A stretch of DNA of 64,000 nt from Branchiostoma floridae (Eukaryota > Chordata > Leptocardii > Amphioxiformes > Branchiostomatidae). This document shows, one piece after another, positions 20,071-49,781 of the stretch. Below the pieces are notes generated by a model. That model did no database searches. It had not been told where the DNA came from and worked only from the letters and a program-made list of their open reading frames with translations. The translations under genes were made by a program, and so were the position numbers. Where the stretch lies: positions 15,470,409 to 15,534,408 of the forward strand of contig NC_049994.1 in assembly GCF_000003815.2 (NCBI RefSeq). The letters run 5' to 3'. The stretch's first letter is position 1. Every line of letters starts with the position of its first letter.

Positions 20071-23000
20071 ATGAGACGACGAGGTAATGATTGAACATTT
20101 TCATGCTACATGTATTTATCTCTGACAGATTCTCTTGAGCTGAGGTTCAGTTTTTTCCTCTTCTGTTGACACACGAGTTGCAAACAACTTATCTACAAGC
20201 AGGTGCATCCGTCGGACATGTTTTGTGGGTATTTTGTCGGCTTTTCTGTGTTTCGACCTTTATTCTTACAATATCCTCAACTCTTGCACTTTCTCTGTTC
20301 TACCTCCCTGAACAAGAAAAATCCTGGAAATCACACACAAGTCAAACCGATACTTCAACTAAGAAATTGGCGGGCAACTTGTAACATTGTTGGCTTTTAC
20401 TTATAATTGACATAATTCGATGTTCCAGTTAACAAAATTGTGATGCTCTTTTCCTTTGTCTTCGAAGGAAGACAACAAAGCCGGGCAAGAGGTCGTCAAG
20501 ACCGCCCAAGGAACCCGATTGTCCTTCTCTTCCTGATGTCTACAATCTTGTACTTCATATCAAAGTATTTTGCAGGAGATTTCTCTCCCAACAACAGCCC
20601 GGCTATAGAGGAAGCACCGCTCCCAGCACCAGCGAGCACCCCGGTGTCGCCAGTCCACCGCGACTATCAGACCTACCTGCTCCGCAAGCGGCGTGATCGT
20701 TCGGATGATCGGGAGAGAAACGGCAACCTCTCAGCGGCGGCAAGGCCACGCGACATCGAGCAGCTGACCTCTCCTACCAGCGACAAGGGCTTTTCAACTC
20801 ACAGCGGCAAAGTCAACGATGTAGGATCGCCAGGCATCGCTTGGGGGAAAAAGAAAAACATTTCAGACCTTGACGCCAAAAGCTTAAACAACGGAGACGA
20901 TGCTGTCCCTACACAACAAACCGAAATCGACAAACCATCTGATGCACCCCTCAGTATTTCTACAAATGTTGGTGACGAGAGACAACCCTTACCTCAAAGT
21001 AAAGACTCTCATGAATTGCAGGGCTCTGGAGTAGAAATCATTGATTCCAATGACAACCCTGTGGATTCTGATCCCTCACCAAAAAGCGAAGAATTATACC
21101 AACAAGCTGAGTACCCTACTTTTACCGACGACAAAGCGTACCTCTTTCTCGACGCCAAGCGACATCCTGGAAGCACTGAAGAAGAGTTCTACGACATAAA
21201 TCGTGAGAAGATCAATCCTACGTCCCTGCACACGTCAAAAAACGGGGTAATGGAAGCAGACGACGACGATATTTTGAGAGGTAAGACGCAGTCGACTGCA
21301 GAAGATGTAGAGTCAAATGGCGTCTTCACCAGAACCGGCACCTTCGATATCATCGACGAAGGTGACCAGATCCAGGACTCACATACCAAGACCGCACGAG
21401 CCAACCAGATTGGTTTAGGCGCACTGTTTTCTCAGAATAATCACCTTTATCATCAAGATAAAGACATTGCACAGAAAGCAAGGCCTAGTGCCGATGAAGG
21501 CGAACCACAATTAAAGAATCAAGAGAGCAAAGAAGAAGTGCCATACTCCAGAGGAAGTTTTGATACTCAAGAAATCAAGCATCTCCGTGCCTCAAAGGAA
21601 TCTACGAACTCTACCATTCACAGCCACACTTCAAGTGCCCAAACCAACCGTCGGCGTAGACGAGACATCGGCGATCAAGTTTACGAAGAAAGTTCAGGCG
21701 AAGACCTCGAAACTACCGAAATGCCGGTGCAAGATACAATCACAGACGCTGTTAGGGGTGGTAGAAGCACAATTGGACCGGACGTGGAAGAGGTAACACT
21801 AACACATCCGTTACGTGTCACAGGAGAAACCAATGCTACTGCAACACTCAACGGCAAAGAAGCAACTGTGACAATCACCGAAAACACGTCTACATCAGGT
21901 AAGGACAGATAGCGTGACTCGTCTTTCAGCTTCATCTTTACAAAATGTATATGGGCTGCACTGTAAGTAATTCATATAGGCTGTATATATATTCATATAT
22001 CTATATATATATTTATACATTTATATACATTTATATATATATATGTAGAGAGAGAGAGAGAGAAATAGATCTTGTTGTTATAGACCATACGCAAGTCACT
22101 GTAATTGTGTCAATACAGATTTCTCTGTTCTGTTCTTTACTAGGTAGCAATCACCAATGGTTACGGGTTTCTCAGAACTGGGCAGTCCAAGACAACCTGC
22201 AAGACTCAAGGCGGCCCGCCTGGAGGGCTCTAGACCTAGACCCGTACACCACTTGGCGCATTGAGCGGACTCTACCTTTGATCATTGACTTTGGAGCCTC
22301 ATACGAACTTAGTCGGATCCGTGTAACATACGAGGAAAATCAGCATGCCATCACAGGGTACAGACTTTACATGTCAGCCGGACCACATGCGCAAAGACAG
22401 CAAGTGAACTGGACTCAGGTCCTGACCACCCAAAGGCAAAACGTCAGCACAAGAGTAGAAACTATCGCTGGATTTGGGGGCACTGGCCGCTCTTGGAAGC
22501 TGGATTTTGTGCATGTTCTCAATGAACCAGAGTTGTGGTGTAACGCAACGTATATGGGCTTAACCTCTCGCGACAGAAGGAAAGACACAGTTTATGTGAC
22601 AAGTGTGCAATTTTTCGGTACAAAAGGTGAGTTTATTTTGCACGTAAGCAACGATAACATATAAGTCTACAATGCCAACTTTCGCATCGATGTAACAAGT
22701 CGAATCTGATAATTATGAAAGTTAATCCTACACCATTGCATTTTCATATTGTGTATCTTTTCTCTTCTGTCACAATGGGAAGTTGCGGGCGACGAAACAG
22801 CTACATCTTCTGGCCACTGGATAGCACACGCCGACATCAGTCCTGAAGCCCAAGAGTACACCGGCTCCGCTCACTATAGGAGGGGGATGCGGAATGGAGT
22901 TACAGATATACTGAGGGGAGGAAACACCATGTGGAAACCACTGGGAACACCTCGGTACCACAATAACTGGTTTGTCGTCCTGGACTATCATGTCAGTTAC

Positions 23001-26000
23001 ACCATGAAGAAGCTGCGGATTGTCAACTACGGCTGTGACTGGATCCATGACGTCAAGGCGTTCACTCTACAAGTCTCCATCGCGGGAAACCCTTACAGGT
23101 ATATGCGAATCAGTTTTGCATTATTCACTCCACTTCCCTGCGTAACTGCGGGAATTTTGGCCCAGAAGGTGCTGGGTTCGAATCCTCTCATGATACCGAT
23201 CCTGTATCCTTGGTAAAGGCATTTTGCAGGTCTTTCCTCACTCCACCCGGATATAAAAATGGATCGGGCTCCGCGTTCCGATATAGTGCCCTAAATACAA
23301 CATTTTTACTTAAATGCATTGTCCAACATTTAACCCTCTTTTCCAAACTTTTCAGACTTTTAGGACACGTCCTAGACCTAACATCACTCCCAGACTACGC
23401 TTAAACTTTGTGTTTACCCAGAAGCTGACATGCGCATATGCTCTTTAGGATATGCTCTTATGAAACCTACAACTTTTTGTATTTTGATATATTTCAGTCA
23501 TATGTTCCTGCATTTGATTTCCATTTTATGATTAGTAATGCCTTTTCATTTGACGTAAAAATAAGCTTTGTAAACCTAATTATTTCATCACTTGATGTTC
23601 TGATTGTACCTTCGCTATATAAAAAATTCCAGATGGACCCCCGTGCTGACCGTGACTGACGTGGCAGCGAACACCTCCCTCCCGCAGTACTTCGGCGGCT
23701 TCTCGGCGTCGGGCCGCTACTGGATGGTCACCGTAACGGCCACCTACTCGGGCTGGGAGCCGTGGATGAGAACGTTTCAGCTCTTTGGCATAAAAGGTAC
23801 GGTAAAAGTTTATCTGTAATTTTGATAAATCTAAAGCTAAAAGTTTGACGTTGTATGAATCCTATGGAAATGCCAATGATTCCCAGTGACATCACCTCCT
23901 ATTTTGATTTCAGACTCACCATATCTCTGTACCCCGATGTTGTTAACGATCACTGCCACTGGTGTGATAAATGGGCCTACCTGGGATCATATAAACGATG
24001 TGGTAGGAGACATGACTCCAGTTCCTAGCGTTATTGTTAGCAACAGCTTAAGAATATGTTAACGATTTCAACAAACAAAAATGTACCTTTTGATTGCCGT
24101 GGTATGATTCTGTGTTCCGTCTTAAGATGCTTTTCTTTTCTAGTATTCGATTATGTTTCTCTACCACTAGTCAAAAATACAATCTTAAGGCTGTGTTATA
24201 CAATATCAACTTGATGTATTTTGAAAGTCGTGTTATCGTTCTGTGTTCCGTGTAAGGATGATGATGAAATGCCAATGGGGACAGTTATCAATACTCAGTG
24301 GATTGATCATACCCGCATATATGACGTCATGTGGAACAACGGAAGCAGTGGCCAATACGTCATTGGAGACGTCGGAAACACGCGGCGGATTGACCTTTCA
24401 CCTGCTGGCTTTGGTGAGTCGTGCTGCAAGTTTACTGAGATTGAGCTAACTCCTCATTCACTCACTCACTCTTTCACTCACACTCACTCACTCACTCATT
24501 CTCTCACTCACTCACACTCACTCACTCACTCTCTCTCTTACTCACTCACTCTCACACACTCACTCATTCATTCATTCACTCAAAACATTCAATTTCTCAT
24601 CCACTCCTCACTCATTCATTCATTCATTCACTCACTCATTCGTTCATTCACTGATTCATCCACTCCTCGCTCACTCTAGTATTAGTTACATACATTATTG
24701 CGTCTTTATCGTATTTCGAAAAAACAATGGATACCAAAAACGTCATGAGTCCTTCATTAGGAACCCTATAGGAGCAATTCGAAAGAACTGTAAATGAATA
24801 CTGATGTCCATTTTTCTTCGGCAGATTGCCGGAGGGATGTCGTTCCTAACATCATGCTACCACTTAAGGTGGACATCTGCTGCGTTCCAGGTGGGTGATT
24901 AGGTGAACATAAACACGATATTAACCATATCATGCCCAAATAAAAACATATGTAAACCACGCACTTAAATCCAAGGAGGAAAGGGATTGTGAAATATAGC
25001 TAGAAGAAATTTTGATTACTACCAACACAGATGAGCTTCCGTGATATTGAGTGCCTGTCTATTGTCCGTATGTCTGTTCCAGTGTGTATAACTTCAGATG
25101 TCTTGATATTGATTTGTGATCTTTCAGGTCACATAGACTGGAATCCAGAGGTAAGTGTAGTTTCCTCTGTTGACTTTTTCGTCTTAATTAATCTCTTTCA
25201 AACACATACTGTCATCATTGAACATGTAAATACTATACACACGGTCTTCTAGGTCAAGACCATTATTAGATTGGCCCTTTCGTTGGAAGTCTTCAATTAC
25301 ACACCTATCTGGCATCTAAGTTTAATTATCCAACATAGTCAACGTTTCTTGTACTTAAGTTATGCAGACATTTTCTGCAACATCGTAACTGCTGGCCAAG
25401 ACGGTTCTATTAGCCTCTACTAGGTCGGTGAAAAATACCTACTAGTATGTTGTATGTATTTACAATGATTTTTCCACTGACCTGGCATCCTCTTACGCAG
25501 GGACATCCAACAGCGAAACCGCCTGCCTGGATGTACCCTGCTTTCTCAACTGTCACCCTTAGTTCCTGACCACCCTGCTTACAAATATGAATCAGCTTAC
25601 CCTTATATATGCAGGACCCCTTTCGAAAACTGAAAGGCCTATTCTCTTATTGGCTGACAGCTGGTTTGGGGGGGGGGGCGTCCACAGGAACTAAGAGTGA
25701 CGGTTGAGAAAGCAGTGTACATCCAGACAGGTGGTTTCGCCGTTGCATATCCCTGCCTAGGAGGATGCTGACCTGGTAGGGGCTAAAAGAACCGTCTTGG
25801 CCCGCAACTACGACATTGCCACCATAAAATCCTGTTGGAGATGAGAAAATACCTGAATTTTGTGTCGTTGACCTTCGGCTCAGGCCGAGCTGAGTGGACT
25901 GCAGTGTTCCAACACAGCCAGTTGCAGGGTGTGCGGAAGCATGACGGGAAATTCTTGCGGCTGTGACAAGGCATGCAGGTATGATATCTATTCCACCAAC

Positions 26001-28853
26001 AGGCTTTCCTTGGGAGTTTGAAAAAAGATAGAAGTCGACAAAAATACAGGCAATCCAGTAGAGTCCATCCATGAAAAGGGTATCACTGTCCCTAAGTACA
26101 CCACAAAAAGACGAAATTCAAGGTATTTTCCCTACATGGTCTGGTAGAGACTACCAAAACAAACCTTGATACACGAAATGAACATGAAAGTAAAAAGAAA
26201 GAAATACAAGGACAACTGTACAATGTGACACATTTCGGATCGATTTCTTTTGTTGGGTCTCACTGGATGAGACGGCCTTAGAATTACAGGCTATGTTTGT
26301 GCGTGTCGTCGAATTGATAACTCCACGGGTGGGGACGGACTAGTACTGGTCTGTGCCGACCTTTCTCGGCATTTACAATACACTGTGTCATTTTCCTTGA
26401 TATTTCTATCAGGTTGTAACGTACTCTAAGGCTAGGTGGGATAAAGGATTATCAAATCAATACATCAAACTTTGCAAGGTACAGCATTTCAAACATCCAT
26501 AACCGTTCTCTTTGAAGGATATTTAGAGACTGTTGCCATAACTACGCGTCCGCCTGTGGTGATGACGTAACAGATGATGGGGACATCCGGCCAGTGATAC
26601 AGCCGGACTCCTGCAAGGGAAGATGTAACACGGAGAACATTGTCAGGTACAGATTGCTGTTGTTACTAGTTAGAGGGCCTCTAAGTAACTTCAGTCAATC
26701 AAACCACCATCTATTACAACATCCATTGGATTGATTATCTCACATGTAAATAGTACTGATAACTGAACACTACTTCCTTCACTTTAAGCTTTTTACCAGT
26801 CCATAAAGAATACAGTAATCTCTTTCGACTTTCCAGCATGATTGTAATTCCACAGTACCACAATGACAGTGCTATGCTGCTTTCCTTTTTGCAAGGATAC
26901 ACGTTTTGCTGTAAGTCCGATCCTCAATAAACAAAATCTGATAGATGAACTACAATTTCCACATATCTCCACATTTAAGTTTTCCTTATTTTTTATTTTG
27001 TTTTGCTTTGTTCAGCAAAGTGACGTGCAGCTGCACAAGTTCCTGCAACTTGACGGAAACTTGCTGTGATGACTTTGAGGATGTCTGTCAGGGTGGAAAC
27101 GCCAACATCACTACATCTGATAGCAACCAGGTAAGGATGATTTTGTCTTCGAATTCGCGAATCTATTACAGTATTGCTATCAACTAACGAACTACGGGAA
27201 CGAAAAAATCAACTAGTTCAACGGTTTTGTTTCCTTTGACAGCCCCTGCAGTGCGTTGCACCCTGGGACTTCCGCTTCAACTTCTGGATGGTCGCGAGTT
27301 GTCCGCCCAGCTTTGCAGACGACGTCGTCCGAGGGATGTGCGAGACTTCCTACCAGAACGACGACATGTTTCTCCACGCCCCGGTCACGGACAACTCCAC
27401 CAACACCAACTACAGAAACGTGTTCTGTGCCCTATGTAATAACGCTAGGTACATGGTAGGGTGGAAGATGGTTGCCAAATGTGGCTACACTCCTTCAGAT
27501 CCACTGAAAACTATCCTACAAGATAAAAACGACATTTGTGATCATTATTTTAGACCCACTGTTGCCCCTGCGCGACTTTGCTTCCCTCCCCACACAACCC
27601 CGCCCCGTGCAAGTGTTCGCTGCGATGTAGCAAAATGTAGAAACATAACCGCTGTTTTCTACGCAAACGCCCGACCCTTTAGGAACTCTGTATGTGCGGA
27701 GTGCTATGCTGAAGAAGATGACCTTTTCGACACCTCTTGCAAAGCGGATGACACTACGTTCATAGGTTTTCTCGGCACAATCACTGTCCTCTTCGACTAT
27801 TCAGACATTTTGCATAGCAAGATGTCGTCCAATGAACTCGAAGTATTCGAACATACGGAGTCGTGTTCTATGGGGTTTATATACGATCCATTTCGAGATA
27901 CCTGTCGTAAGATCTCTTTTGTACCCCCTACTGAAGAAGTTCCCAAAGATTCAGGTGTAAAACAGGCGGGAGAATCCTTGGAGAATGATCATGATGACCA
28001 TCAAGCACCAACTCAGAGTCCCATTGATGAGTTACCAACTCAAAACTCATATTTCCCACAGCAAAGCGCTACATTTCTCGTCATCAACACTGTTTCTGGT
28101 GCTTCTGCCGTCATTTCTATCTCATATCTCCTATCCGGCCTTCGCCACTTTGCACGAGCCGAATCCGCTGTGAAGATCTGCCTCTTGACATCCCTTCTTC
28201 TGGCACAGATCAGCCAGCTGCTGGGTCAGGTCGTTCCTTCAGCAGCCTGCTGCACGGCCATGTTGGTGTGCACCCTCTGCTTCTGTCTGGCCGCTAGTCT
28301 GTCTCTCACTGCCACAATCCAACACCTGTCTGTCCTACAGCGAGGCGGCACCTGTAAAGCTGCTGCCCAGCTCTTAGTCATTGTGGTTATTCCGCTGGCA
28401 ATGTCAGGAGGGTACGTTGCGCTGGATGATTCAATCCACTTGGGGGCGCCTCGTCCATTGGCTAGTCCTACCTTCTGTTGGATTGACGACCCCGCAAAAA
28501 TGGCAATCACAATGGTCGTGCCCTTAGTGATCTGTACGTTTGTGGATCTCTACTACCTGCTCCGTATGTCCCTGACATGTGCTACCACCGATGGCGTGCA
28601 TGACTCCTTCTTGGCGCTGGGAGCGCTGCAGTTCGTCCCAATCACAGCTGCCATGACCACAGGCGTCATGACTGCCTACTTTGACTCAGAACTACTGCGC
28701 ACGGCTTTCTTATACATGGTGATCTCCTTGGGCGGGGTGGTTGGGTTCCTGTTCCTGGTATTTTCGATTGTTGGGGTTCGGAAGGACGATGCTAACGTAG
28801 TCCCTCCTTTGCCAAGTTCATTTGAAGCCTTGAGTGACCCATCTGCTCCTTAA
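20071..28853 (+). CDS. Receptor A: signal-anchor, two discoidin-like, two somatomedin-B, 7TM
   Basis: Thirteen coding exons: 20071-20083, 20468-21898, 22144-22626, 22783-23098, 23633-23796, 23914-24002, 24257-24413, 24825-24890, 25128-25150, 25884-25978, 26518-26646, 27016-27130, 27243-28853. All junctions are GT-AG and join in frame to 1563 aa. Residues 1-20 are basic and 21-40 form one hydrophobic anchor. Residues 41-481 are an acidic Ser/Thr-rich stalk with RKRR at 77-80 and five Arg at 399-403. Residues 482-642 and 643-802 are F5/8 type C-like. Somatomedin-B domains lie at 928-959 and 978-1013, each with eight Cys in the family spacing. A Cys-rich region (NVFCALCNN; YDPFRDTC) precedes seven hydrophobic segments at about 1304-1540, with a FCWID extracellular-loop motif as in secretin/adhesion receptors. 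No GPS motif is seen. The fourth intron is absent from genes B and C. The exon model is mine from splice signals and paralogue comparison. Confidence 0.85.
21965..22062. repeat. TA-rich microsatellite with GA run (intron 2 of gene A)
   Basis: Repeated TATATATTTATACAT is followed by GAGAGAGAGAGAG. A related TATC/TATA tract sits at the equivalent place in gene C (48100-48180), so the low-complexity tract predates the A/C duplication. Confidence 0.75.
23099..23632 (+). mobile_element. Gene A-specific intron carrying a tRNA-derived SINE
   Basis: In genes B and C the second discoidin-like domain is one uninterrupted exon across a Tyr-Asp-Trp-Thr site. In gene A the same place reads TTACAG, then 534 bases beginning GTATAT and ending TTCCAG, then ATGGACC. 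Splicing keeps the frame, with only Asp changed to Arg. Within the intron, GGTTCGAATCC at 23175-23185 is a perfect polymerase III B box. It is followed by a GGTAAAGGCATTTTGCAGG..TTTCCTCACTCCACCC segment that resembles the conserved central part of marine invertebrate SINEs. The insert is most simply read as a SINE-associated intron gain. Confidence 0.7.
24452..24677 (+). repeat. CTCA/TTCA microsatellite in intron 6 of gene A
   Basis: About 225 bases of CTCACTCA and CATTCATT units lie just after the donor of exon 6. The equivalent intron of gene C has the same repeat on the opposite strand (45685-45838). Gene B lacks it. Confidence 0.9.
25375..25825. mobile_element. Foldback element in intron 8 of gene A
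   Basis: An arm from about 25375 to 25565 (GGCCAAGACGGTTCTATTAG..CTTTCTCAACTGTCACCC) is repeated in inverted orientation at about 25677-25825 (GTGACGGTTGAGAAAGCAG..AAAGAACCGTCTTGGCC). A short loop with a poly-G run separates the arms. It is non-coding and absent from the matching introns of genes B and C. Confidence 0.75.
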
Positions 28854-30598: not shown

Positions 30599-33500
30599 AT
30601 GAGACAGCGAGGTAAAGTTGGTACATTTCTGTAGAACACATCTTCATTTAGAAAACGTCACCCATGGTTCTGGCTCATGGTACACTGCCTTGTTACTCAT
30701 TTGTCAGTGATGATGCTCATTCAAATATTTTTAATGACCGTCTGTTGTCCTTTTGTTTAAAGCTCGGCGGCAAAGTATAGGAGGTCGCCAGCGGCGTCCA
30801 TTCAGCCTAGTCATTCTTCTCGTAAGTGCCTGGGCCTTATATCTCATCCCGAAGTACCTTGCAGGAGATCTCTTTCTAGATGGAAGCAAGGGAACAGAAG
30901 GAATACCAACCAAGGCAAGATCAACGAGCTCTCCGGAGTCGACAGTCAGCCGTCGGGGCATGGGCGATCTTCTCCGCAGGCGAGGCAATGGCCAGAAGGA
31001 TGGGAAGGGCATTAGCAACTCCCCGGTGAAGAGGCCACACACCGAGCAACTCGCCTTTATCACTGTCGGCCCTAGCACACCGAGTCACAACGTCAGGTTC
31101 AAGAAGGTAATGGTAAAGAAAACGCCAAATGTGACCCTGCTCAAGATCAGAAAATCGCTCAATAAGAATGGCACACAAAAGGGAGCAGACGCCATAGACC
31201 ACTACTTCACATTCTCAGTCTCAGATAAGGATGCCCTTGAGGACAAGCTGCGACCGACTGCCGATGAAGCCACATTTACCAGTGACGGCACCTTCCAGAC
31301 CATCAGCAACGGTGATCAGGAGAGGAGCCAGCCTGTAGGGACTAAGACGCAAGAAATCGGCCAGACTCATTCAGACAGGTTTTTTTCTCATTACAACCAC
31401 ACAGAACATGGCGTCAGGTCTCAACCAGAGACAATGTTCGACGCTGTTGAAGAGAAAACGCCCAAAATGAACCACCGTGGTAAAGATGAGGTGCCAGTAC
31501 CATACAGCATCGAAGAATTAGACACTCGAACAATTCACGAATCGACGGGAAACGCCACCAATCCCAGGCCCGCCCCTAGAGCCCAATACAAGCCTCGACA
31601 AACACGAGAAGCTAGCGACCCACGCCTTGAAGAGAGTTCAAAGCCCAAGCCTGCTACGAGAGCCCAATCCAAGCCTCGGCAAACACGAAAAGCTAGCGAT
31701 CCACGATTTGAAGAGAGTTCAAAGCCCAAGCCTGCTACGAGAGCCCAATCCAAGCCTCGACAAACACGAAAAGCTAGCGATCCACGATTTGAAGAGAGTT
31801 CAAAGCCCAAGCCTGCTACGAGAGCCCAATCCAAGCCTCGGCAAACACGAAAAGCTAGCGATCCACGATTTGAAGAGAGTTCAAAGCCCAAGCCTGCTAC
31901 GAGAGCCCAATCCAAGCCTCGACAAACACGAAAAGCTAGCGACCCACGCCTTGAAGAGAGTTCAAAGCCCAAGCCTGCTACGAGAGCCCAATCCAAGCCT
32001 CGACAAACACGAAAAGCTAGCGATCCACGATTTGAAGAGAGTTCAAAGCCCAAGCCTGCTACGAAAGCCCAATCAAAGCCTCGGCAAACACGAGAAACTA
32101 GCGACCCACGCTTTGAAGAGAGTTCGGGTGAGCAACCTGTTGCTACACAAGTGCCAGAAGAGTTTTCAACAGCAAACACTCTCTGGAGCCGTGGAAGTGC
32201 CGCTGGACCAAGCATGGAGGCAGTAACACAGATGATGCAGACCACAAGACAAGGTACAGTCAGTAACCTAGAAACAACTGCAGTCAGTACAGCCAAAGTG
32301 ACAACTGCAACAATTGTCAAAGGACAACAACAAGGGGGGTTAAATGCAATGGAAAACGTCCCTAAGTCAGGTAACTACGAGTAGACATGTCTGTCAGAAC
32401 GTAACCCCTCTGTCTTTCTGTTCTAAGTCCTACTTCTTCCGCGGGGTCTCTTTTTCTAAGTCCTTGCTGTAGGTCAAGTGCAATTTACATGCACCAGGGG
32501 ATCGAAGGCCTATCTATGTAACATAGGAGACAAGCACCTGTGTGTCCCGTTTGTTGCTTTCTCTGCTTTCTCTGCTTAGCACTCAGCCTCCTGCTGTAGT
32601 GCCTTGCATAAATGTTTGACCCAAGGGCTACAGAAATGGAGATAGGCGCCATCCCTAAATATCTGTTACAGATGTACGGGCAACTTAGACAAAATCACAC
32701 AAAAATGTCCATGTTAGTATTCCGCAGAATGCGAAGAGATCCGGTTCATTGGTAACATGTTTACAAATGGTCAGTGTGCTTTGCTATGGACACAAGTTAT
32801 CCGAGTCCGATGACATTTCAATGTCTTATGGTGTGCATGTTTTATTTTTTATGCCATCCAGGCAGTATTCACGGTCGGTTACATATTTCTCAGTACTGGA
32901 CAATACAAGACAACCTGCAACACTCACTGTCCACCTGGAATGCTCTATATGACCTAGACCCATACACCACTTGGCGCATTGAGCGGACTCTACCTTTGAT
33001 CATTGACTTTGGAGCTTCATACGAACTTAGTCAGATTCGTATAACATACGAGGAAAATCAGCATGCCATCACAGGGTACAGACTTTACATGTCAGCCGGA
33101 CCACATGTTCAAAGACAGCAAGTGAACTGGACTCACGTCCTGTCCACCAAGCGGCAAAACATCAGCACAGACGGAGTGGAAACCATCGCTGGATTTGGGG
33201 GCACTGGTCGCTCTTGGAAGCTGGATTTTGTACATGTTCTCAATGAGCGACAGTTGTGGTGTAACGCAACGTACATGTACGAAACCTCGGGGGACAGAAT
33301 TAAAAACACGGTTTATGTGACAAGGGTGGAATTTTTCGGTGCAAAAGGTGAGTCACTCAAGGCACATGTAACAATAACTTGGATATCTATGATAGTAGCA
33401 GGCTTTTGTTAGATCAGCAGCTATGGATTTACATCTGATGATTCAATTCAATTCGCAATGCGATTCACCCCTTAGCTAATTGTGCGTTGTTACCTTCGCC

Positions 33501-36500: not shown

Positions 36501-38824
36501 GTATGTATGTCTATGTGCATGCCATATTGTGATGGTCAGTGGGTGGAAAGGAGAGAAAAATAAAGCTCAGAAAGATCATGCCTTCTTTTACTTTTTGTAT
36601 CGTCTTCCTCTTGTGGTATCGAATGGCTTGGTGACTATGCTGCTTGACACGAGATTGAGACATATGCAAACATCAGATTTCATCTTCTGTCGCTTAAAGG
36701 ATATTTGGAGACTGTTGCCATAACTACGAGTCCGCCTGTGGTGATGATGTAACAGATGATGAAGATATCCGGCCAGTGATACAGCCGGACTCCTGCAGGG
36801 GACGATGTAACATGGAGAACATCGTCAGGTACAGATTGCTGTTTATTAGCCTGGGTAACAGAATTCGTCCAAGGCATGTAAATCCTAAGCCTTGTAACGG
36901 CTTATCTTGTACATTTGGTTGTCTCTCTAAAAATTCTGTTATGTTATTTTATCTGCCAGTGTTGTGACGTGCAACTGCATAAGTTCATGCAACACGACGG
37001 GAACTTGCTGCGATGACTTTGAAGCTGTCTGTCAGGGACACAAGGGCGGTTGGACAGGTGACAGTAACGTCAACATCACTGCCACAGAAAGCAACCAGGT
37101 GAGCCATGAATCAATACATGTCGCCTTCGCTTTGCAGTCGTCTTGTTGTTACACACGAACGAACGAACAAACCAACAAACATGTTATCGCTCTGTTGACA
37201 GCCCCTGCAGTGCGTTGCACCCTGGGACTTCCGCTCCCACTTCTGGATGGTCGCGAGTTGTCCGCCCAGCTTTGCAGACGACATCGTCCGAGGCATGTGC
37301 GAGATATCCTTCCAGAACTTCCAGAAATACGACAGGTTTCTCTACGCCCCAATCACGGACAACTCCACCAACACCAACTACAGAAACGTGTTCTGTGCCC
37401 TATGTAATAACGCTAGGTACATGGTAGGGTGGGAAGTGGTTGCCAAGTGTCGTTACACTCCTCCAACTGCAATAAAAGGTGCACTGCAGGATAGAGGCAG
37501 CATTTGCAATCATTATTTCAGGCCAAGTGTTGCCCCCGCGCGACTTTGCTTCCCTCCCCACACAACCCCGCCTCGTGCAAATGTTCGCTGCGATGTGGCA
37601 AAGTGTCGGAACATAACCGCTGTTTTCTACGCAAACACCCGACCCTTTAGAAACTCTGCTTGTGCGGAGTGCTATGCTGATGAGGACGACCTTTCTGATA
37701 CATCTTGTAAATCAGATGACACGGACAAGGTGGGGTTCTTTGGGATCATTACTGTGCTAGTTGACTATTCGGCCATTTTCCAAAGCAAAATGTCATCTAG
37801 CGAACTACAGGTCAGCGACCATATTGAGTCGTGTTCTATAGGGTTTATATACGACCCATTTCGAGATACCTGTCGTAAGATCTCTTTTGTGACCCCTAAT
37901 GAAGAAGTCCCCAAAGATGCAGGTGTAACACAGGCGGGAGAATCCTTGGAGAATGATTATGATGACCATCAAGCACCAACTCAGAGTCCCATTGATGAGT
38001 TACCAACTCAAAACTCATATTTCCCACAGCAAAGCACTACATTTCTCGTCATCAACACAGTTTCTGGTGCTTCTGCCGTCATTTCTATCTTATATCTCCT
38101 ATCCGGCCTTCGCCGCTTTGCGCGCGCCGAATCCGCTGTGAAGATCTGCCTCTTGACATCCCTTCTTCTGGCACAGATCAGCCAGCTGCTGGGTCAGGTC
38201 GTTCCTTCAGCAGCCTGCTGCACGGCCATGTTGGTGTGCACCCTCTGCTTCTGTCTGGCCACTAGTCTGTCTCTCACTGCCACAATCCAACACCTGTCTG
38301 TCCTACAGCGAGGCGGCACCTGTAAAGCTGCTGCCCATCTCTTAGTCATTGTGGTTATTCCGCTGGCAATGTCAGGAGGTTACATTGCACTGGATGACTC
38401 AACCCGCATGGGGGCGCCACGTCCATTGGCTAGTCCTCCCTTCTGTTGGATTGACGACCCCGCAAAAATGGCCATCACAATGGTCGTGCCCTTAGTGATC
38501 TGTACGTTAGTTGACCTCTACTATCTGCTCCGTATGTCCATGACATGTGCTACCACCGATGGCGTGCAGTACTCCTCCCTAGCGCTAGGGGCGCTGGTGT
38601 TTGTCCCATTCACAGCTGCCATGACCACAGGCGTCATGACTGCCTACTTTGACTCAGAACTACTGCGCACGGCTTTCTTATACATGGTGATCTCCTTGGG
38701 CGGGGTGGTTGGGTTCCTGCTCCTGGTATTTTCGATTGTTGGGTTTCGGAAGGACGATGCTGATGTAGTTGTCCCTTCTTTGCCAAATTCAGTTGAAGCC
38801 TCGAGTGACCCGTCTGTTCCCTAA
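30599..38824 (+). CDS. Receptor B: signal-anchor, repeat stalk, two discoidin-like, two somatomedin-B, 7TM
   Basis: Twelve coding exons: 30599-30611, 30763-32370, 32862-33347, 33910-34398, 34613-34704, 35059-35224, 35611-35676, 35815-35837, 36290-36384, 36700-36828, 36960-37098, 37202-38824. They join in frame to 1642 aa with GT-AG introns in the same phases as genes A and C. The basic N-terminus plus hydrophobic segment is kept, but the rest of the stalk is almost unrelated to A/C and carries seven 27-residue repeats (31560-32126). The discoidin-like pair, both somatomedin-B domains and the 7TM exon match A and C closely. The second somatomedin-B exon has eight extra codons. No stops or frameshifts are seen, so the gene appears functional. 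The 3' flank resembles that of gene C. Confidence 0.85.
31560..32126 (+). repeat. In-frame 81-bp (27-residue) coding repeat, seven units
   Basis: Each unit reads KPKPATRAQSKPRQTRKASD followed by PRFEESS, with small changes (the first unit begins NPRPAPRAQ; the last has TKAQ and RETSD). Units 2 to 6 are nearly identical at the DNA level, pointing to recent expansion or homogenisation. Genes A and C carry only a single related (R)RRxRxD...EESSG motif at this place. Every unit has Arg-Gln-Thr-Arg, a minimal RxxR convertase motif. Long open frames in the other phases and on the opposite strand come from the repeat. Confidence 0.95.
33640..33840 (-). mobile_element. LINE 3'-end fragment in intron 3 of gene B
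   Basis: The segment 33720-33838 (TTGAAAATGAAACGCCCCAT..GATTGATTCGATGATC..GGTGTGATTTCGGA) matches 55388-55508. There it directly follows a recognisable LINE coding fragment on the minus strand, so this is the trailing part of the same family. Confidence 0.5.
35266..35484. mobile_element. MITE with TA-flanked TIRs in intron 6 of gene B
   Basis: The ends are TAAGGGCGCGGTCACATAGG and CCTATGTGACCACGCCCTTA, extended inward by TCGTGCGATCGTCGTACGA against TCGTGCGACGATCGCACGA. The TA at both ends suits a Tc1/mariner-type TA target duplication (inference). It is absent from genes A and C. Confidence 0.8.
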
Positions 38825-40572: not shown

Positions 40573-40849
40573 CAGATAGAAGCATGACAGAATAAGAATT
40601 TCACTACACTTGGCAGAAAGTCATAATGGTATATTATATATGTATATGTAAGGTCAAAAATACACAAATGGCACATGATTTTACATCACGCACGAAATTC
40701 ATTTACACGACACCATTGAAATACAAGCATTGTTCAATCTGATGTGATCATTGATCAAACCGAAAGAGTCAGTGACTTTAGAGAAGTCCCGATGACATAC
40801 CCCAACTTCCCCACATTCACCGAAGAACAGACAGCCCCTTTCCTCTTAA

Positions 40850-41045
40850 AATCACAGAACCCACAAATTGTAGAAAAAGTGGTACTTTTCGTCTTCCTCT
40901 GCTTCCAAGAAAAAAGAAGTCAAACCCAACCTGTTTAGAAATAGCCAACACTAATATTCGAGTATTCTCTTTAACAATAACGTTTATCACTATCCATTGT
41001 CACATGTTTTACTATGTACTCCGGGCATCAACTAGCAAATAAACT
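40850..41045 (+). repeat. Dispersed repeat, copy 1 (second copy at 61752-61925)
   Basis: The blocks CAGAACCCACAAATT, GAAGTCAAACCCAACCTG, TTTAGAAATAGCCAACACTA, TGTCCATTGTCAC and GCAAATAAACT occur in the same order here and near 61760. It ends in a polyadenylation-like AATAAAC, so it is probably the 3' end of a retroelement. Confidence 0.65.
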
Positions 41046-41214
41046 ATCAATCATTATATAGAGGTACGTAACATCACAAATACCTGTACATGCGGTATAT
41101 ATTATGTGATATCCAATGTCTTTATGCTATTCGCTGAACATTTAGACGTATTCATATTACAGATTCTTTTATCGTTGAAGAGGTCCATTAGTCACGTATG
41201 AATACGGTTACTCC

Positions 41215-41475
41215 AATTTTTTTTCAAACAATGACTGTTTTTAAGGTAAATTTAAGTACATACCTCCAAATTTTCTTCAAGCAATGACTGTTTTTAAAGG
41301 TAAGGTACATACCTCCTGAAATTTTCGACGACTGACAGTCCGTCTTCATCACGGAGACTGACCTAGTCTCGATCTCGCGAGAGAACACTCGTGTATGGTA
41401 CCTTACCTTTAAAAACAGGTATGTACCTTACCTTTAAAACCAGTCCTTGCTTGAAGAAAATTTGGATCAACCACA
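41215..41475. mobile_element. Foldback element downstream of gene C
   Basis: The blocks AATGACTGTTTTTAAAGGTA and GGTACATACCTCC recur, and their reverse complements (GGTACCTTACCTTTAAAAAC, ATGTACCTTACC) follow after a loop holding TCGATCTCGCGAGAG. A short related piece lies near 5808-5845. Confidence 0.6.
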
Positions 41476-41596
41476 TATTATTTTGAAATAAAAGAGATGC
41501 AATTGCCCAGTATAGAGAAGTAAAAAATACACGTTGATTGATATAGATCACGTGAGAGAATATGCTCTGCTCACTGCTGAGAAATTTGGCGCCACT

Positions 41597-44500
41597 TTAT
41601 GAAGTAGACGGGTTACTCAGGGCTTCAACTGAACTTGGCAAAGAAGGGACAGCTACGTTAGCATCGTCCTTACGATCCCAAACAATCGAAAATACCAGGA
41701 ACAGGAACCCAACCACCCCGTCCAAGGAGATCACCATGTATAAGAAAGCCGTGCGCAGTAGTTCTGAGCCAAAATACGCAGTCATGACGCCTGTGGTCAT
41801 GGCAGCTGTGAATGGGACGAACAGCAGCGCCCCCAGCGCCAATAAGGAGTACTGCACACCATCGGTGGTAGCGCATGTCATGGACATACGGAGCAGGTAG
41901 TAGAGGTCCACTAATGCACAGATCACTAAGGGCACGACCATTGTGATTGCCATTTTTGCGGGGTCGTCAATCCAACAGAAGGGAGGACTAGCCAATGGAC
42001 GAGGCGCCCCCAAGTGGATTGAATCATCCAGTGCAACGTAACCTCCTGACATTGCCAGCGGAATAAGCACAATGACTAAGAGATGGGCAGCAGCTTTACA
42101 GGTGCCGCCACGCTGTAGGACAGACAGGTGTTGGATTGTGGCAGTGAGAGACAGACTAGCGGCCAGACAGAAGCAGAGGGTGCAAACCAACATGGCCGTG
42201 CAGCAGGCTGCTGAAGGAACGACCTGACCCAGCAGCTGGCTGATCTGTGCCAGAAGAAGGGATGTCAGGAAGCAGATCTTCACAGCGGATTCGGCGCTTG
42301 CAGAGTGGCGAAGGCCGGAAAGGAGATATAAGATAGAAATGACGGAAGAGGCACCAGAAACTGTGTTGATGACGAGGAATGTAGCGTTTTGCTGTGGGAA
42401 ATATGAGTTTTGAGTTGGTAACTCATCAATGGGACTCTGAGTTGGTGCTTGATGGTCATCATGGTCATTCTCCAATGATTGTCCTGCCTGTGTTACACCT
42501 GCATCTTTGGGAACTTCTTCAGTAGGGGGAACAAAAGATATCTTACGACAGTTATCTCGAAATGGGTCGTATATAAACCCCAAGGAACACGACTCCGTAT
42601 ATTCGAATACTTCGAGTTCGGTGGACGACATCTTGCTATGCAAAATGTCTGAATAGTCGAAGAGGACAGTGATTGTACCGAGAAAACCTATAAATATAGA
42701 TTCATCCGCTTTGCAAGAGGGCTGGTTAAGGTCGGCCTTGTCAGCATAGCACTCCGCACAAGCAGAGTTTCTGAAGGGTCGGGCTTTTGCGTAGAAAACA
42801 GCGGTTATGTTTCTACATTTTGCCACATCGCAGCGAACACTTGCACGAGGTGGTTTTGTGGGGGGAGGGAAGCAAAGTCGCACAGGGGCAACAGTGGGTC
42901 TGAAATAATGACTACAAATTTCGCCTGTATCTTGTAGGAAAGTTTTCAGATTTGAAGGTTTTTTGCCACATTTGGCAACCATCTTCCACCCTACCATGTA
43001 CCTAGCGTTATTACACAGAGCACAGAACACGTTTCTGTAGTTGGTGTTGGTGGAGTTGTCCGTGACCGGGGCGTGGAGAAACATGTCGTCGTTCTGGTAC
43101 GAAGTCTCGCACATCCCTCGGACGACGTCGTCTGCAAAGCTGGGAGGACAACTCGCGACCATCCAGAAGTGGGAGCGGAAGTCCCAGGGTGCAACGCACT
43201 GCAGGGGCTGTCAAAGGAAAGAAAACCGTTGAACTAGTTGGTTTATTCGTTCCTTGGTTCGTTCGTTTGTTGAAAGCAATGCTGCATTACAGCTGCTAAA
43301 CTCAAAACGAAACTAGTACGATGAAATTTGCAAACAAATATGTAATGTTTACCTTCACATGTTTCGTAGTCTAACACTGAATACTGTTATGTCTATTCTT
43401 ACTCCAACAAATGTATATCTAGGAACCTGAACCCCTCCCGCTCTGTGCATAGCCATTTGCTGCATTATGTGACCGAACAAGTAGGTATGTAACCGAACAC
43501 AACAGGTGTGTCTGCTACTTTACCGGTAACCATGGTGATGGCTGTCTGGCCCGGGTCGTTGACCAGGTAAACATAATCATCCTTACCTGGTTGTCATCCG
43601 ACGCAGTGATGTTGGTGTTTCCACCCTGACAGGCATCTTCGAAATCATCACAGCAAGGATCCGTCAAGTTGCAGGAACTTGTGCAACTGCACGTCACTTT
43701 ACTGAACAAAGCAAAACAAAACAGAATATCGACATAAACATAAGAAAAATGTGAATATGATGTCATGAGAAATTGCTAGGTCCTCTCATGGTCTATCAGA
43801 TTTTATTCACATTTGTGTATTGAGGATGAAAGCATGTTGGTAGTCATGCCATTGAATTGCTATATATTGATCTACAATGTTGTAAAGAGATGATAACGGA
43901 TTACTTCATTGGCTGGCTTTAAGTTTACAGTGAATGAGGTAGCGCTCAGCTTGTTTTACTATGGTAACCGCACTTTCGTACATGTGGGATAACCAATAAC
44001 ATGGTGTAGTAATAGATAGTGGTTCAACTGACTAAGGTAACATAGAGGCCCTTTAGCTAAACAACAGCAGGTTGTACCTGACAATGTTCTCCGTGTTACA
44101 TCTTCCCTTGCAGGAGTCCGGCTGTATTACTGGCCGGATGTCGTCATCATCTGTTACGTCATCACCACAGGCGGACTCGTGGTTATGGCAACAGTCTCCA
44201 AACGCCCTTCAAAGAGAACGGTTTAGGATGTTTGAAATGCAATATTTGGCTGGCAAACTATGATTTGATGTATCGATTTGAGAACGCTTTATCCCGTCTT
44301 AGAATGTGTTACATCTATTCAATAGAGTATAGATAAACAACCTGATAGAAATATGAAGCAAAATGGTACAGTGTATTGTAATCGCTGAGAAAGATCGGGA
44401 TAGACCAGTACTATAGCTCGTCAACACCCGTCGAGGTTTCATCAATTCGATGATCTGCACTAAATTTGCTACAGTCATTGCCCGTAATCTTAAATGCCGT

Positions 44501-47500
44501 TTTATCCAGTGAAAGCCAATAAAAGAAATTGATCCGAAATGTGTCGCGTCGCCCAAATTCGGCTAACGTTGAATTTCGTCTTTTTGCCGGTGCACAAGAA
44601 ATGATAACCTTTTTGGGAAGGACTCTACTGGTCAATTATTCACCGTATTGTTGCAGAATCCTACTGTCCATAACCCATAAGGAAGGCCCATTGGTGTAAT
44701 AGCTATCATACCTGCATGCCTTGTCACAGCCGCAAGAATTTCCCGTCATGCTTCCGCACACCCTGCAGCTGGCGGTGTTGGAACACTGCAGTCCACTCAG
44801 CTCGGGCTGAGCAACAGAAGATCAGCAACATGAAATTCAGGTAGATAGGTGTTATGGGAAAGTGAAAGTGACCTTGATTGTGTTTAGTTCAGCAAAGAGC
44901 CCATCTAATAGTGGTCGTGACCTAGAAGACGCTTTGTACAGGGTTAATGCATTTGTGTATTTGAAAGAGATGAATAAAGGGTAAAAATTCAACAGAAGAA
45001 ACTGTACTTACCTCTGGATTCCAGTCTATGTGATCTGAAACATTACAAATCAATATTTAAAAATCTGTGGCTAATAAACACTGGGACAGACACACGGAAA
45101 CATAGATAGGCACTTGTCATGAAAGCTCATCTGTGTTGGTAGTAATCAAACAATGCTAAACTTTCTTCCAGCTATATTTCACGATGCTTTCCCCCTTGGA
45201 TTAAAGTACATGTACATATGTTTTAACTGGAGCATTACATCATATCGTGTTTATGTCCACTTAAACACCCACCTGGAACGCAACAAATGTCCGCCCTTAG
45301 CGGTAGCATGAAGTCAGGGACGACATCCCTCCGGCAACCTGCCGAAGTAAGATGGAAGACATCAGGATTCATTTGCAGTTCTTTCACGGTGTGTTCTTAG
45401 TATTCATTGTTTCACGTTTCATTCCTTCAGCTTACATATGCGATAAAGAATAAATTATGTGTGTACGCAAGATTCAAGTTACGGACAAAAGTTATTGTTT
45501 GCTTTGAATTGATATTTTCCTTTTAATTCCGTGCTTTGCGTCGATAGCAAAGTGTTGACATATAAAATCGCTTAACAAAACATCCCCACAATGACCAAAG
45601 AGGGAAAGAACCCACGTGGACTACCCCGTAAGAGATGGTCTGACAACATCAGGGAAGATTTTCATCTCCTGCACATTGCCAAGTCAGTGAGTGATTGAGT
45701 GAGTGAGTGCTTGAGTGAGTGAGTGAGGAGTGTATGAGAAATTGAATGTTTTGAGTGAATGAATGAGTGAGTGACTGAATAAGTGAATGACTGAAAAAGT
45801 GAGTGAATGAATGAATGAATGAGTGAGCGAGTGAGAAGTTACTCAATCTCAGTAAACTTGCAGCACGACTCACCAAAGCCAGCAGGTGAAAGGTCAATCC
45901 GCCGCGTGTTTCCGACGTCTCCAATGACGTATTGACCACTGCTTCCGTTGCTCCACATGACGTCATATATGCGGGTGTGAGAAAGCGACTGCGTCATGAT
46001 AACTGTCCCCATTGTCATTTCATCATCATCCTTACATGGAACACAGAATCATAACACGACTTACAAAAATACATTTTTGTTTGCTGAAATCAAATAACTC
46101 ATCGAATATTAGAAAAGAAAAGTACACAGAATCATAACACGACAATCGAAAGGTACATTTTTGCTTGTTGAAATCGTATAACACATCCTGAAGCTGTTAA
46201 GGTGGGGTCACACATGCGTATAATATATATTCAAGTCCGTTTGAGGTGCGTATAACGCTCTTAGTCTCTACCAGGCTCCACAGGTCGCGGTAAAAATAAA
46301 ACAAATTGGACAAATATAGAGACATAACATGCCAGATGAGTTAGCTGACCGAGAAGTATGGTTAGCGACCCAGCTAACTCGTCTGACATGTTACCTGTTA
46401 ACGTTTGTCCAATTTCTATCATTTTTCCAACGACCTGTAGGGCCTGGTGGAGGCTATTACTCCCATGCGCGCCTCATACGGACTTAAATATATACGCAGG
46501 TGTGACCCCACCTTTACTAACAATAACACTAGGAACTGGAAACATGTATCTTACCACATTGTTCGTAGGCCCATATATAACACCTTTGTCCAACAAAAAA
46601 AACAGCGGACAGAGGTATGGTGAGTCTGAAATCAAAACAGGAGGCGATGTCACGGAAAACCTCATCCATAGATGAGATTATGGAAGCTCAACAAATCAAA
46701 TCAAGTTTATTGCACAACGATTGCATCAGGTACAATGTATGGCAAGTAAAACGCAGCACTAATAACTGCAAAATATCTACACTATTGTACTAATTTAACA
46801 TCATTGCACAATACAAATATACCGGCAAATTACCGTACCTTTGATGCCAAAGAACTGAATTAGTCTCATCCACGGCTCCCAGCCCGAGTAGGTGGCCGTT
46901 ACGGTGACCATCCAGTAGCGGCCGGACGCCGAGAACCCGCCGAAGTACTGCGGGAGGGAGGTGTTCGCTGCCACGTCAGTCACGGTCAGCACGGGGGTCC
47001 AGTCGTAAGGGTTTCCCGTGATGGAGACTTGAAGAGTGAACGTCTTGACGTCATGGGTCCAGTCACAGCCGTAGTTGACAATTCGCAGCTTCTTCATGGT
47101 GTAACTGGTATGATAGTCCAGGATGACAAACCAGTTATTGTGGTACCGAGGTGTTCCCAGTGGTTTCCACGCTGTTCTCACTCCTATCTCTACGTTTTCA
47201 ACTCCATTCCGCATCCCTCTACTATAGTGAGCAGAGCCGGTGTACTCTTGAACCACAGGACCGATGTCGGCGTGTGCTATCCAGTGGCCAGAAGATGCAA
47301 CCGCTTCGTTGCCTGAAACTTTTCATCGTGGTAGAAGAGAAAAGATACATATCGTCATGAAAATACAATGGCATAGGAATAGCTTTGAATCATATTGCGA
47401 TCATTGTAAGATTCGACTCGTCTCATCGATACGAAAGTTTGTATTCTAGACTTAGATGTACAAAATAAACTCACCTTTTGAACCGAAAAATTCCACCCTT

Positions 47501-49781
47501 GTCACATAAACATTGTCTTTAATTCTGTCGAACAAGGTTTTGTACATATACGTTGCGTTACACCACAACTCTCGCTCATTGAGAACATGTAAAAAATCCA
47601 GCTTCCAAGAGCGCCCAGTGCCCCCAAATCCAGCGATGATTTCTACTCTTGCGCTGACGTTTTGCCTTTGGGCGGTCAGGACATGAGTCCCAGTCACCTG
47701 CTGTCTTTGCGCATGTGGTCCGGCTGACATGTAAAGTCTGTACCCTGTGATTGCATGCTGATTTTCCTCGTATGTTACACGGATCTGACTAAGTTCGTAT
47801 GAGGCTCCAAAGTCAACGATCAAAGGTAGAGTCCGTTCAATGCGCCAAGTGGTAGACGGGTCCAGGTCCAGAGCCTTCCAGGCGGACCGTGAGCCTTGCA
47901 GGTTGTCTTGGACTGCCCAGTACTGAGAAACCCGTAACCATTGGTGATCGCTACCTAACAAAGTATAGAACAGAGAAATCTGTATTGACACAACAAAGGT
48001 ACAGCGACTTTCCTTAAATCTATAACAACTACTTACAGCAAACAGACATATACAGTAACTGACTTTTTGTTGAGCTTTGGCTTTTGGCATTGGCACAATA
48101 TATATATATGTATATTCACATATCTATCAATAGCTATCTATCTATATTTATGTATCTATGTATGTATCTATCTAAATTGTATCTATGCTTCTGAAGCTAA
48201 AAGACAGTTCTACCTGTCTTTACCTGATGTAGACGTGTTTTTGGTGATCGTCGAAGTTGCTTCGTCGTCGATGAGTGTTGCAGTAGCATTGGTTTCTCCT
48301 GTGACACGTAACGGATGTGTTAGTGTTACCTCTTCCACGTCCGGTCCAGCTGTACTCCTTCGTCCCCAAGCAGCGTCTGCAGTTGTATCTTGTACCGGTA
48401 CTACGGTAGTTTTGAGGTCGTCGCCTGAACTTTCTTCGTCGTCAACTTCTCGTGTTCGCCGACGCTTGGCCGATTTGGCACTTGTCTCACGATTTATGTC
48501 GTAGTGCTCTTCTTCAGTCCCGTCAGGTTGTGGATTGTCGTCGAGAAAGAGGTACGCTTCGTCGCCGGTGAAAGTAGGGTACTCAGCTTGTTGGTATAAC
48601 CCTTCACTTTTTGGTGAGGGATCAGAATCCACAGGTTTGTCAAGGGAATCAATGATTTCTACTCCAGAGTCCTGCAATTCATAAGACCCTTTGCCTTGAG
48701 GTAAGGGTTGTCCCTTGTCACCAACATTTGAAGAAATATTGAACGGTGCATCAATTGGTTTGTCGATTTGGGTTTGATGTGAAAGGTTATCATCGTCTCC
48801 CTTGTTTGGCGACCTTTTGGCGTCAAGCTGGATCACATCTGAAATGCTTTTCCATTCTCCCCAAGCGATGTCTGACGATCCAACCTCGTTGACTCTGCCG
48901 CTGTGAGTTGAAAAGCCCTTGTCGCTGCTAGGAGAGGTCAGCTGCTCGATGTCGCGTCGCCTTGCCGCCGCTGAGAGGTTGCCGTTGCTCTCCCGATCAT
49001 CCGAACGATCACGCCGCTTGCGGAGCAGGTAGGTCTGATAGTCGCGGTGGACTGGCGACACCGGGGTGCTCTCTGGTGCTGTGAGCGGAGCTACTTCTGT
49101 GGCCAAACTCTCGTTAGGGGAGAAATCTCCTGCAAAGTACTTTGAGATGAAGTACAAGGCTGTAGACATCAGGAAGAGAAGGACAATCGGGTTCCGCGTA
49201 CGGTCTTGGCGACCCCTCGCCCGTTGTTGTCGTCCTTCGAAGACAAAGGAAAAGAGCATCACAATTTTGTTAACTGGAGCATCGAATTATGTCAATGATA
49301 AATTAGAGCCAACAATGTTACAAGTTGCTCGCCAATGTCTAAGTAGAAGTATCGGTTTGACTTGTTGTGTGGGATTTTCAGCATTTCTCTTGTACAGGGA
49401 GGTGGAACGGAGAAAGTGCAACAGTTAAGAGAAAGGTCGAAAAGCAGAAAAGCCGACAAAATACCCACAAAACAAGTCTGACTAACACACCAGCTTGAAG
49501 ATACATTGTTTGCCACTCAAGTGTCAACGGAAGAGGGAAAATGAACCTCTAAAGTCTAAAAAAAGTCTCTCAGAGATGAATACATGTACGAGAGGTGTTT
49601 CTCGGTCACACCCAACAATAATAAGCACATTCAACTAAACATTTCGAGGCACAGCTTCGTCGTATGAAGGCTTTCATCAATATCCTCCAAATTTCAAATC
49701 TTAACAGCCCTTTCTTTCTAGGCGACGTCTTTTTGAAAATCAGTAGCATAGAAATGTTCAATCTTTACCTCGTCGTCTCAT
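41597..49781 (-). CDS. Receptor C: signal-anchor, two discoidin-like, two somatomedin-B, 7TM
   Basis: Twelve coding exons read on the minus strand: 49781-49769, 49234-48224, 47954-47475, 47318-46839, 46625-46555, 46030-45874, 45338-45273, 45034-45012, 44806-44712, 44206-44078, 43701-43587, 43207-41597. They join in frame to 1416 aa, with every junction GT-AG and in the same phase as genes A and B. The N-terminal half (MRRRGRQQRARGRQDRTRN, anchor, stalk, promoter) is clearly A-like, but the stalk is shorter by 140 codons. The dibasic site RKRR near residue 76 is kept; the second site reads KRRRTRE. The 7TM exon mixes gene B-like residues (AAHLLV, SPPFC, MSMTCATTDGVQYS) with gene A-like ones (YVALDDSIHLGAP). 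No disabling changes are seen. Confidence 0.85.
45685..45838 (-). repeat. GAGT/GAAT microsatellite in intron 6 of gene C
   Basis: GAGTGAGTGAATGAATG units occupy the same intron position and the same sense orientation as the CTCA/TTCA tract of gene A (24452-24677). The tract was therefore present before the two copies separated. Confidence 0.9.
46199..46514. mobile_element. Foldback MITE in intron 5 of gene C
   Basis: The ends are AAGGTGGGGTCACAC and GTGTGACCCCACCTT, with arms of about 120 bases (CAAGTCCGTTTGAGGTGCGTA against TACGCAGG..CTCATACGGACTT, and CTACCAGGC against GCCTGGTGG). The loop also has GAGTTAGCTG against CAGCTAACTC, so the whole unit can fold on itself. Confidence 0.8.
46678..46745 (-). 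mobile_element. LINE-type 3' tail in intron 4 of gene C
   Basis: On the minus strand the segment reads ATTGTACCTGATGCAATCG, then TGTGCAATAAACTTGATTTG. An AATAAA followed by a short degenerate tail repeat is typical of a truncated non-LTR retrotransposon end. Confidence 0.5.

Follow-up and report, generated by a model that had tools for sequence, protein, structure and literature searches.

A 64,000-nucleotide stretch of the 513-Mb, 431-contig genome of the lancelet Branchiostoma floridae (C16:15470409-15534408, hereafter the window) contains three neighboring genes, here termed A, B, and C, each of which we propose encodes a surface receptor that combines an N-terminal anchor and stalk, two discoidin-like domains, a MIB/HERC2-like module, two somatomedin-B (SMB) domains, and a seven-transmembrane (7TM) region in one polypeptide. 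The exon chains were reconstructed from the raw window sequence, and in all three genes every intron is bounded by GT..AG, the phases are consistent, and there are no internal stops. Gene A lies on the forward strand (20071..28853, stop included), and its 13 exons (20071-20083, 20468-21898, 22144-22626, 22783-23098, 23633-23796, 23914-24002, 24257-24413, 24825-24890, 25128-25150, 25884-25978, 26518-26646, 27016-27130, and 27243-28853) specify a protein of 1563 amino acids (aa). Gene B, also on the forward strand (30599..38824), has 12 exons (30599-30611, 30763-32370, 32862-33347, 33910-34398, 34613-34704, 35059-35224, 35611-35676, 35815-35837, 36290-36384, 36700-36828, 36960-37098, and 37202-38824) and gives 1642 aa, while gene C, on the reverse strand (49781..41597), has 12 exons, the first at 49781-49769 and the last at 43207-41597, and gives 1416 aa. 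A first-pass annotation of this DNA had described three paralogs that join in frame over 12-13 exons between positions 20071 and 49781. This is borne out by the spliced models, and the two outer positions coincide exactly with the ATG start codons of genes A and C.

Gene D and constraint on the shared architecture

Matches to discoidin and SMB queries at C16:12.79 Mb revealed a fourth gene, D. It lies on the forward strand (C16:12782561-12793550), 2.7 Mb from the cluster, and has 12 exons encoding 1601 aa. Gene D holds every exon of B and C, with equal order, strand, and phases (1,1,1,1,0,1,1,0,2,2,0 for exons 2-12 in B, C, and D), including a 23-base exon that lies between the two halves of the gene. 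Compared with A-C, it is 26-35% identical in the stalk, 43-47% in the MIB-like module, 53-64% in the discoidins, 63-65% in the last exon, and 68-69% in the SMB exons. Synonymous divergence (dS) between A-C and D is 0.67-2.8, with one value saturated, and the ratio of nonsynonymous to synonymous divergence (dN/dS) is 0.19-0.50 where computable, the last exon having values of 0.29-0.30. Of 36 comparisons, 35 give a ratio below 1 and the remaining one is saturated; these values show conservation of the architecture under purifying selection. When A, B, and C are aligned to D by blastn, conserved DNA falls within the modeled exons, a single repeat ahead of C and D being the exception; exon conservation at this level is incomplete, some exons not being conserved. 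Conserved frames relative to D are present in 11 of the 13 exons of A and 10 of the 12 of B, and none was found outside the modeled exons of these two genes. That D keeps all exons and phases, with no conserved frame outside the exons, argues against a chimeric gene model.

Parts of these genes appear to have exchanged sequence. Within the last exon, alignment codons 341-380 (transmembrane helices TM2-TM3) are 98-99% identical in nucleotides between A-C and D, third positions being 97-100% identical, and most other stretches of this exon have 52-75% identity to D. A near-identical tract amid a diverged exon looks like gene conversion between A-C and D across 2.7 Mb, and last-exon codons ~21-80, which have 80-90% identity, may be a second conversion tract. 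The dS between A and B is a mosaic (stalk 1.95, MIB-like 0.79, SMB 0.54, discoidins 0.22-0.29, last exon 0.21), which suggests that the discoidin and 7TM exons of these two genes have also been converted.

Domains of the predicted proteins

The second exon of A (20468..21898, forward strand) encodes a basic and hydrophobic N-terminus followed by a long polar stalk that ends in RRRRD..EESSGED, and the sequence models and Kyte-Doolittle analysis give an equivalent anchor and stalk in B (30763..32370, forward strand) and C (48224..49234, reverse strand). All four proteins begin with MR(R/Q)R and further basic residues and then have a hydrophobic segment with a Kyte-Doolittle peak of 1.76-1.91 in A-C (1.76-2.08 over A-D), so the type II-like N-terminus on a long stalk that had been described for the three genes is supported, and the N-terminus of A-D fits a type II-like anchor. 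Where the stalk ends, the alignment of all four genes contains R-x-x-R-[D/E] followed by EESSG[E/D] (residues 400-403 of A for the R-x-x-R). The earlier account of the N-terminus overlooked this feature, which is possibly a proprotein convertase site. The stalk of B additionally has an 81-bp repeat array (31578-32125) in which 6.8 copies of a 27-aa coding repeat carry R-Q-T-R (seven occurrences).

The stalk is followed by two discoidin-like domains. In A, the first is a single exon (22144..22626, forward strand; residues 482-642) with phase 1 at both ends and the second (22783..23796, forward strand; residues 643-802) is interrupted by an intron; the corresponding domains are at 32862-33347 and 33910-34398 on the forward strand in B and at 47954-47475 and 47318-46839 on the reverse strand in C. 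The Pfam model F5_F8_type_C_2 (PF22633) matches two stretches in each protein (E = 1.5e-7 in A, 7e-9 in B, and 7e-7 in C) with whole-protein scores above the cut-off, and F5_F8_type_C also matches two stretches in each of A-C, exceeding its cut-off in B only. Scanned as single exons, the first discoidin of each of the three genes and the second of B and C are recognized by both models (E ≤0.006), with scores below the curated cut-offs. The discoidin pair predicted by the first-pass annotation is thus supported, its span in A agreeing with the two residue ranges given above. An alignment of 15 members, consisting of the domains of C and D and 11 relatives from the same genome, strengthens this, as each F5/8C model recognizes 14 of the 15 at E ≤0.01, with best values of 1.3e-13 and 2.4e-13. 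Among solved structures, 20 match the profile of this alignment at E ≤0.01, and the top ones are modules of a bacterial glucanase/chitosanase (PDB 2rv9 and 4zxe; E ~1e-6), followed at lower rank by other glycosidase modules, the alginate lyase AlyQ, sialidases, and the fish lectin FBP32. The bacterial modules are parts of enzymes, while the amphioxus domains are repeated in a receptor ectodomain. The chitosanase/glucanase modules are of the CBM32 type and, by this profile kinship, the discoidin domains of A-D are of a CBM32-like, putatively sugar-binding type. The nearness to bacterial CBM32-type modules makes a glycan a likelier ligand than collagen or protein.

The exons of discoidin 1 in A-D and of discoidin 2 in B, C, and D are in phase 1 at start and end. 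In a genome search with discoidin 2, 150 of 205 candidate matches were scored, and five of these are within genes A-D; the other ~145 include several in tandem groups, among them ones near C13:13.9 Mb and C7:23.2-23.6 Mb. A strict donor pattern gave a candidate splice donor near the domain end in nine of 15 discoidin relatives and none in six, and in each of the nine the first candidate is in phase 1, one having a second candidate in phase 0. Phase-1 discoidin exons and phase-1 donors in relatives suit acquisition of the discoidin front end by exon shuffling. The intron in discoidin 2 of A (23099-23632, 534 bases) is lacking in B, C, and D, and for its bases ~41-170 the genome search listed 40 further matches elsewhere; the intron is likely to be a recent gain that includes an interspersed repeat.

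Discoidin 2 is followed, ahead of the SMB exons, by a module of two exons (A, 23914..24413 and B, 34613..35224, forward strand; C, 45874..46625, reverse strand) that was overlooked in the first-pass domain list, which is supported as far as it went. In A the assignment comes from a weak Pfam match and profile comparison, and in B from homology to A, C, and D. The Pfam model MIB_HERC2 (PF06701) matches whole protein A at E = 0.13 and fragments of A and C at E = 0.0038 and 0.042, and the module shares the pattern RGP..W, GTV, VxW, and Y..G with the MIB/HERC2 domain of the Mind bomb and HERC2 ubiquitin ligases, but differs from it in scoring below the Pfam cut-off and in its location in a predicted extracellular region. 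When the A-D profile was compared by hhalign with five of the 11 genomic stretches that match PF06701 at E ≤0.01, the two aligned over 54 columns with E = 3.8e-7 and a probability of 93%, while the best of 200 column-shuffled controls reached E = 0.016; these are uncalibrated E-values from small profiles. The second exon of the module has only four genomic matches at E ≤1, and these are in A, B, C, and D. We regard the module ahead of the SMB pair as probably MIB/HERC2-like.

Two SMB domains follow, encoded in A by three exons (25884..27130, forward strand), in B at 36290..37098 (forward strand), and in C at 43587..44806 (reverse strand). Somatomedin_B matches two stretches in each protein (E = 7.1e-10, 1.1e-10, and 8e-9 in A, B, and C, respectively) and two in D, in agreement with the SMB pair that had been annotated. 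An exon-wise search of the genome with this model (PF01033) gave 23 places, one of which is in D and none in A-C, where introns interrupt the domains.

The last exon of A (27243..28853, forward strand) encodes a cysteine-rich ectodomain, a polar linker, the 7TM region, and a short tail, and those of B (37202..38824, forward strand) and C (41597..43207, reverse strand) likewise encode a cysteine-rich region and 7TM. The C-terminal Kyte-Doolittle peaks fit seven helices in A-D, with one extra peak above threshold inside the cysteine-rich region of B and C. With the last exon of C as query, 34 genomic matches merge into 32 loci, and of the 30 matches outside A-D, one covers the 7TM part and the remainder the cysteine-rich region. 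Seven of nine scanned relatives match 7tm_2 at E ≤0.01, five of them at 5.8e-15 or better, locus L050 at 6.2e-5, and locus L035 at 0.0097, which is below the cut-off and covers 58 residues; L036 and L038 are unmatched. From 27 loci (L034-L060), 18 were retained by open-frame length and hand removal of six, and two of these were compared individually. Over 225 columns, the 7TM of A-D aligns with 16 relatives at E = 4.3e-5, including a CWI..P motif, compared with a best E of 0.13 in 20 block shuffles and 0.44 for the reversed profile. Moreover, L038 aligns both with A-D (E = 1.5e-9, probability 96%) and with the 16 relatives (E = 2.5e-15). These comparisons indicate that the 7TM of A-D is only remotely class-B-like and no GPS or GAIN model is among the Pfam matches of the four proteins (A-C at E ≤1, D at E ≤10), so that in the adhesion-type 7TM of the first-pass annotation the seven-helix part stands and the adhesion label needs qualifying. 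The profile of the last exon gave no solved structure at E ≤1. Matches to EMP70 (E = 0.26-0.82) and to Ago_hook, MUCL1, cEGF, and similar weak Pfam hits were treated as chance.

The relative L035, on C4, has two SMB domains, a cysteine-rich region, and a 7TM-like region in a single 931-aa frame. A discoidin match on the same strand within 20 kb upstream is found at four of the 32 last-exon loci, all on C16, and these are A-D; the comparison used the 150 scored matches of the discoidin 2 query, which a distant discoidin may escape. The SMB, cysteine-rich, and 7TM part is thus common in this genome, and the discoidin front end is special to A-D as far as searched.

Outside the genes, two frames flank the cluster in inverted orientation (18928-19218, forward strand, and 50570-50860, reverse strand) and share a near-identical translated stretch. 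A further frame (55420-55725, reverse strand) carries a C..C, H, C pattern that resembles the tail of reverse transcriptases of long interspersed nuclear elements.

Proposed receptor and alternative explanations

We now put forward a hypothetical mechanism for A-D in which each gene gives one polypeptide, an anchored and possibly processed discoidin-MIB-like-SMB-7TM surface receptor that signals via a G protein, and we consider this probable. The basic N-terminus and signal anchor would open an extracellular polar stalk, and a proprotein convertase may cut the stalk at the conserved R-x-x-R-[D/E], directly ahead of the folded part. After the stalk would come the two CBM32/F5-8C-like discoidins, the MIB/HERC2-like module, the SMB pair, the cysteine-rich region, and a GPS-free 7TM related to class B. 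We propose that the discoidin pair grips glycans of the matrix or of microbes, that the SMB/cysteine-rich part transmits binding to the 7TM, and that the 7TM signals via a G protein. The sequence itself shows the gene structure, the domain order, the constraint on the architecture, and the kinship of the last exon with an amphioxus SMB-7TM family; membrane topology, processing, ligand class, coupling, and signaling are what we infer from it. The first-pass interpretation of a sensor with a common order of N-terminal anchor, discoidin pair, SMB pair, and 7TM in three genes holds for the order and for the parts, with an incomplete domain list and too definite a receptor class. A more elaborate version is tentative and, taken as a whole, doubtful. 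Here the product would be an eight-helix G protein-coupled receptor (GPCR) precursor from which a convertase removes the type II anchor and stalk, with glycan-binding discoidins and a MIB/HERC2 fold taken over from ubiquitin ligases of the cytosol; the result would be a glycan sensor confined to lancelets, exon-shuffled onto an older SMB-7TM receptor.

Several results weigh against the proposed single-chain receptor. Gene conversion makes A, B, C, and partly D non-independent copies. No 7tm_2 match was obtained in A-C at E ≤1 or in D at E ≤10; the hhalign probability for the 7TM of A-D with the 16 relatives is only 69%, and with L035 the values are E = 0.0027 and 11%. Full-length D has no F5/8C match at E ≤10. 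AlphaFold models from three-sequence alignments were uninformative at their confidence and were given no weight: the last exon had a mean predicted local distance difference test score (pLDDT) of 30.4 with seven long helices, and discoidin 1 a mean pLDDT of 30.4 and a predicted template modeling score of 0.21 with seven strands. For the MIB/HERC2-like module, the fragments of A and C score 17.5 and 14.2 bits against a curated PF06701 cut-off of 33.5, B and D have no match (the best for D is Tudor-knot, E = 0.049), none of the 11 genomic matches lies in A-D, and the known members of this domain are cytosolic. At the N-terminus, Kyte-Doolittle analysis does not distinguish signal anchors from signal peptides that are cleaved, and R-x-x-R is frequent in these basic stalks (seven occurrences in A, nine in B, six in C, and four in D).

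Were each unit instead two adjacent genes, one for a membrane-anchored double-discoidin protein and one for a separate SMB-7TM receptor, the joined model would be a chimera of a kind documented in lancelet annotations (PMC4967905). It would accord with the absence of a listed same-strand discoidin match in the 20 kb ahead of 28 of the 32 last-exon loci, and with the C4 relative, whose SMB and 7TM-like regions share one open frame without discoidin. However, the small exons between the halves (exons 6-9 of A, including the 23-base exon) keep phase and order in all four genes, the halves are adjacent on one strand in all four copies, and comparison of A and B with D gave no conserved frame that could serve as an alternative first exon, so we hold this to be very unlikely. 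Less easily set aside, though still improbable, is that each gene has several products, splicing or proteolysis also freeing a soluble ectodomain (discoidin, MIB-like, and SMB parts) with a lectin or matrix role, alongside a 7TM that signals little or not at all. The R-x-x-R sites in the stalk, the weak conservation of the 7TM relative to class B profiles, and a related C1 locus whose 457-aa open frame encodes SMB and cysteine-rich regions but lacks a 7tm_2 match all speak for such products, but the last exon is constrained relative to D, as its dN/dS indicates, and a cut at the aligned R-x-x-R, which is upstream of the discoidins, would leave them joined to the 7TM. That the genes are decaying or non-functional tandem copies is barely credible, even though the duplicates are young, dN/dS reaches 0.79 (B-C, discoidin 2), and A carries an insertion, since the four long frames have no stop or frameshift, dN/dS is below 1 wherever computed, and the insertion in A is flanked by in-frame splice sites. 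Gene D, the dN/dS values, and the restriction of conservation to exons together disfavor separate genes, pseudogenes, and chance open frames.

Relation to known receptors and significance

SMB domains were described in the amphioxus expansion of adhesion GPCRs, and discoidin (DS) is among the amphioxus-only domains in the legend of Fig. 2 of that survey (Nordstrom et al. 2008, PMC2246102), consistent with the first-pass statement that SMB joined to adhesion-classed 7TM is known from amphioxus surveys. That set, classed as adhesion GPCRs, resembles A-D in organism and in N-terminal SMB, and A-D may overlap receptors of the figure, the comparison being with the text, which names no gene with two discoidin and two SMB domains, a MIB/HERC2-like module, or an N-terminal anchor. 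SMB is also described in Mth/Mthl homologs of B. floridae, the acorn worm Saccoglossus, and the sea anemone Nematostella (PMC4768249) and in planarian PARF1 and NvX receptors (PMC3261222). By published description, these SMB-bearing Methuselah-like/NvX/PARF1-type receptors, which like A-D combine SMB with a class-B-related 7TM, would be the nearest described group (PMC4768249, PMC3261222). PARF1 and NvX differ from A-D in that their descriptions give a single SMB, except for one planarian protein with two predicted, and do not mention discoidin, while A-D have two SMB domains and discoidins. Narrow searches of open-licence papers gave, among the papers listed, none recognized as describing the whole architecture and no paper on an extracellular MIB/HERC2 domain; in PMC12716839, examined for these domain names, amphioxus appeared only in the reference list.

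Chimeric gene models are a recognized hazard in lancelet annotations, and novel domain combinations in these animals are suspected as annotation errors; lancelet-only architectures containing 7tm_2 are mentioned in the same source without domain detail in the text concerned (PMC4967905). Since the diverged paralog D keeps every exon and phase, the combination described here looks real. Genes A-D equip an SMB-7TM receptor with discoidin domains from phase-1 exons and, in the predicted ectodomain, with a MIB/HERC2-like module; if confirmed, they would be a testable case of a receptor acquiring a new ligand-binding front end.

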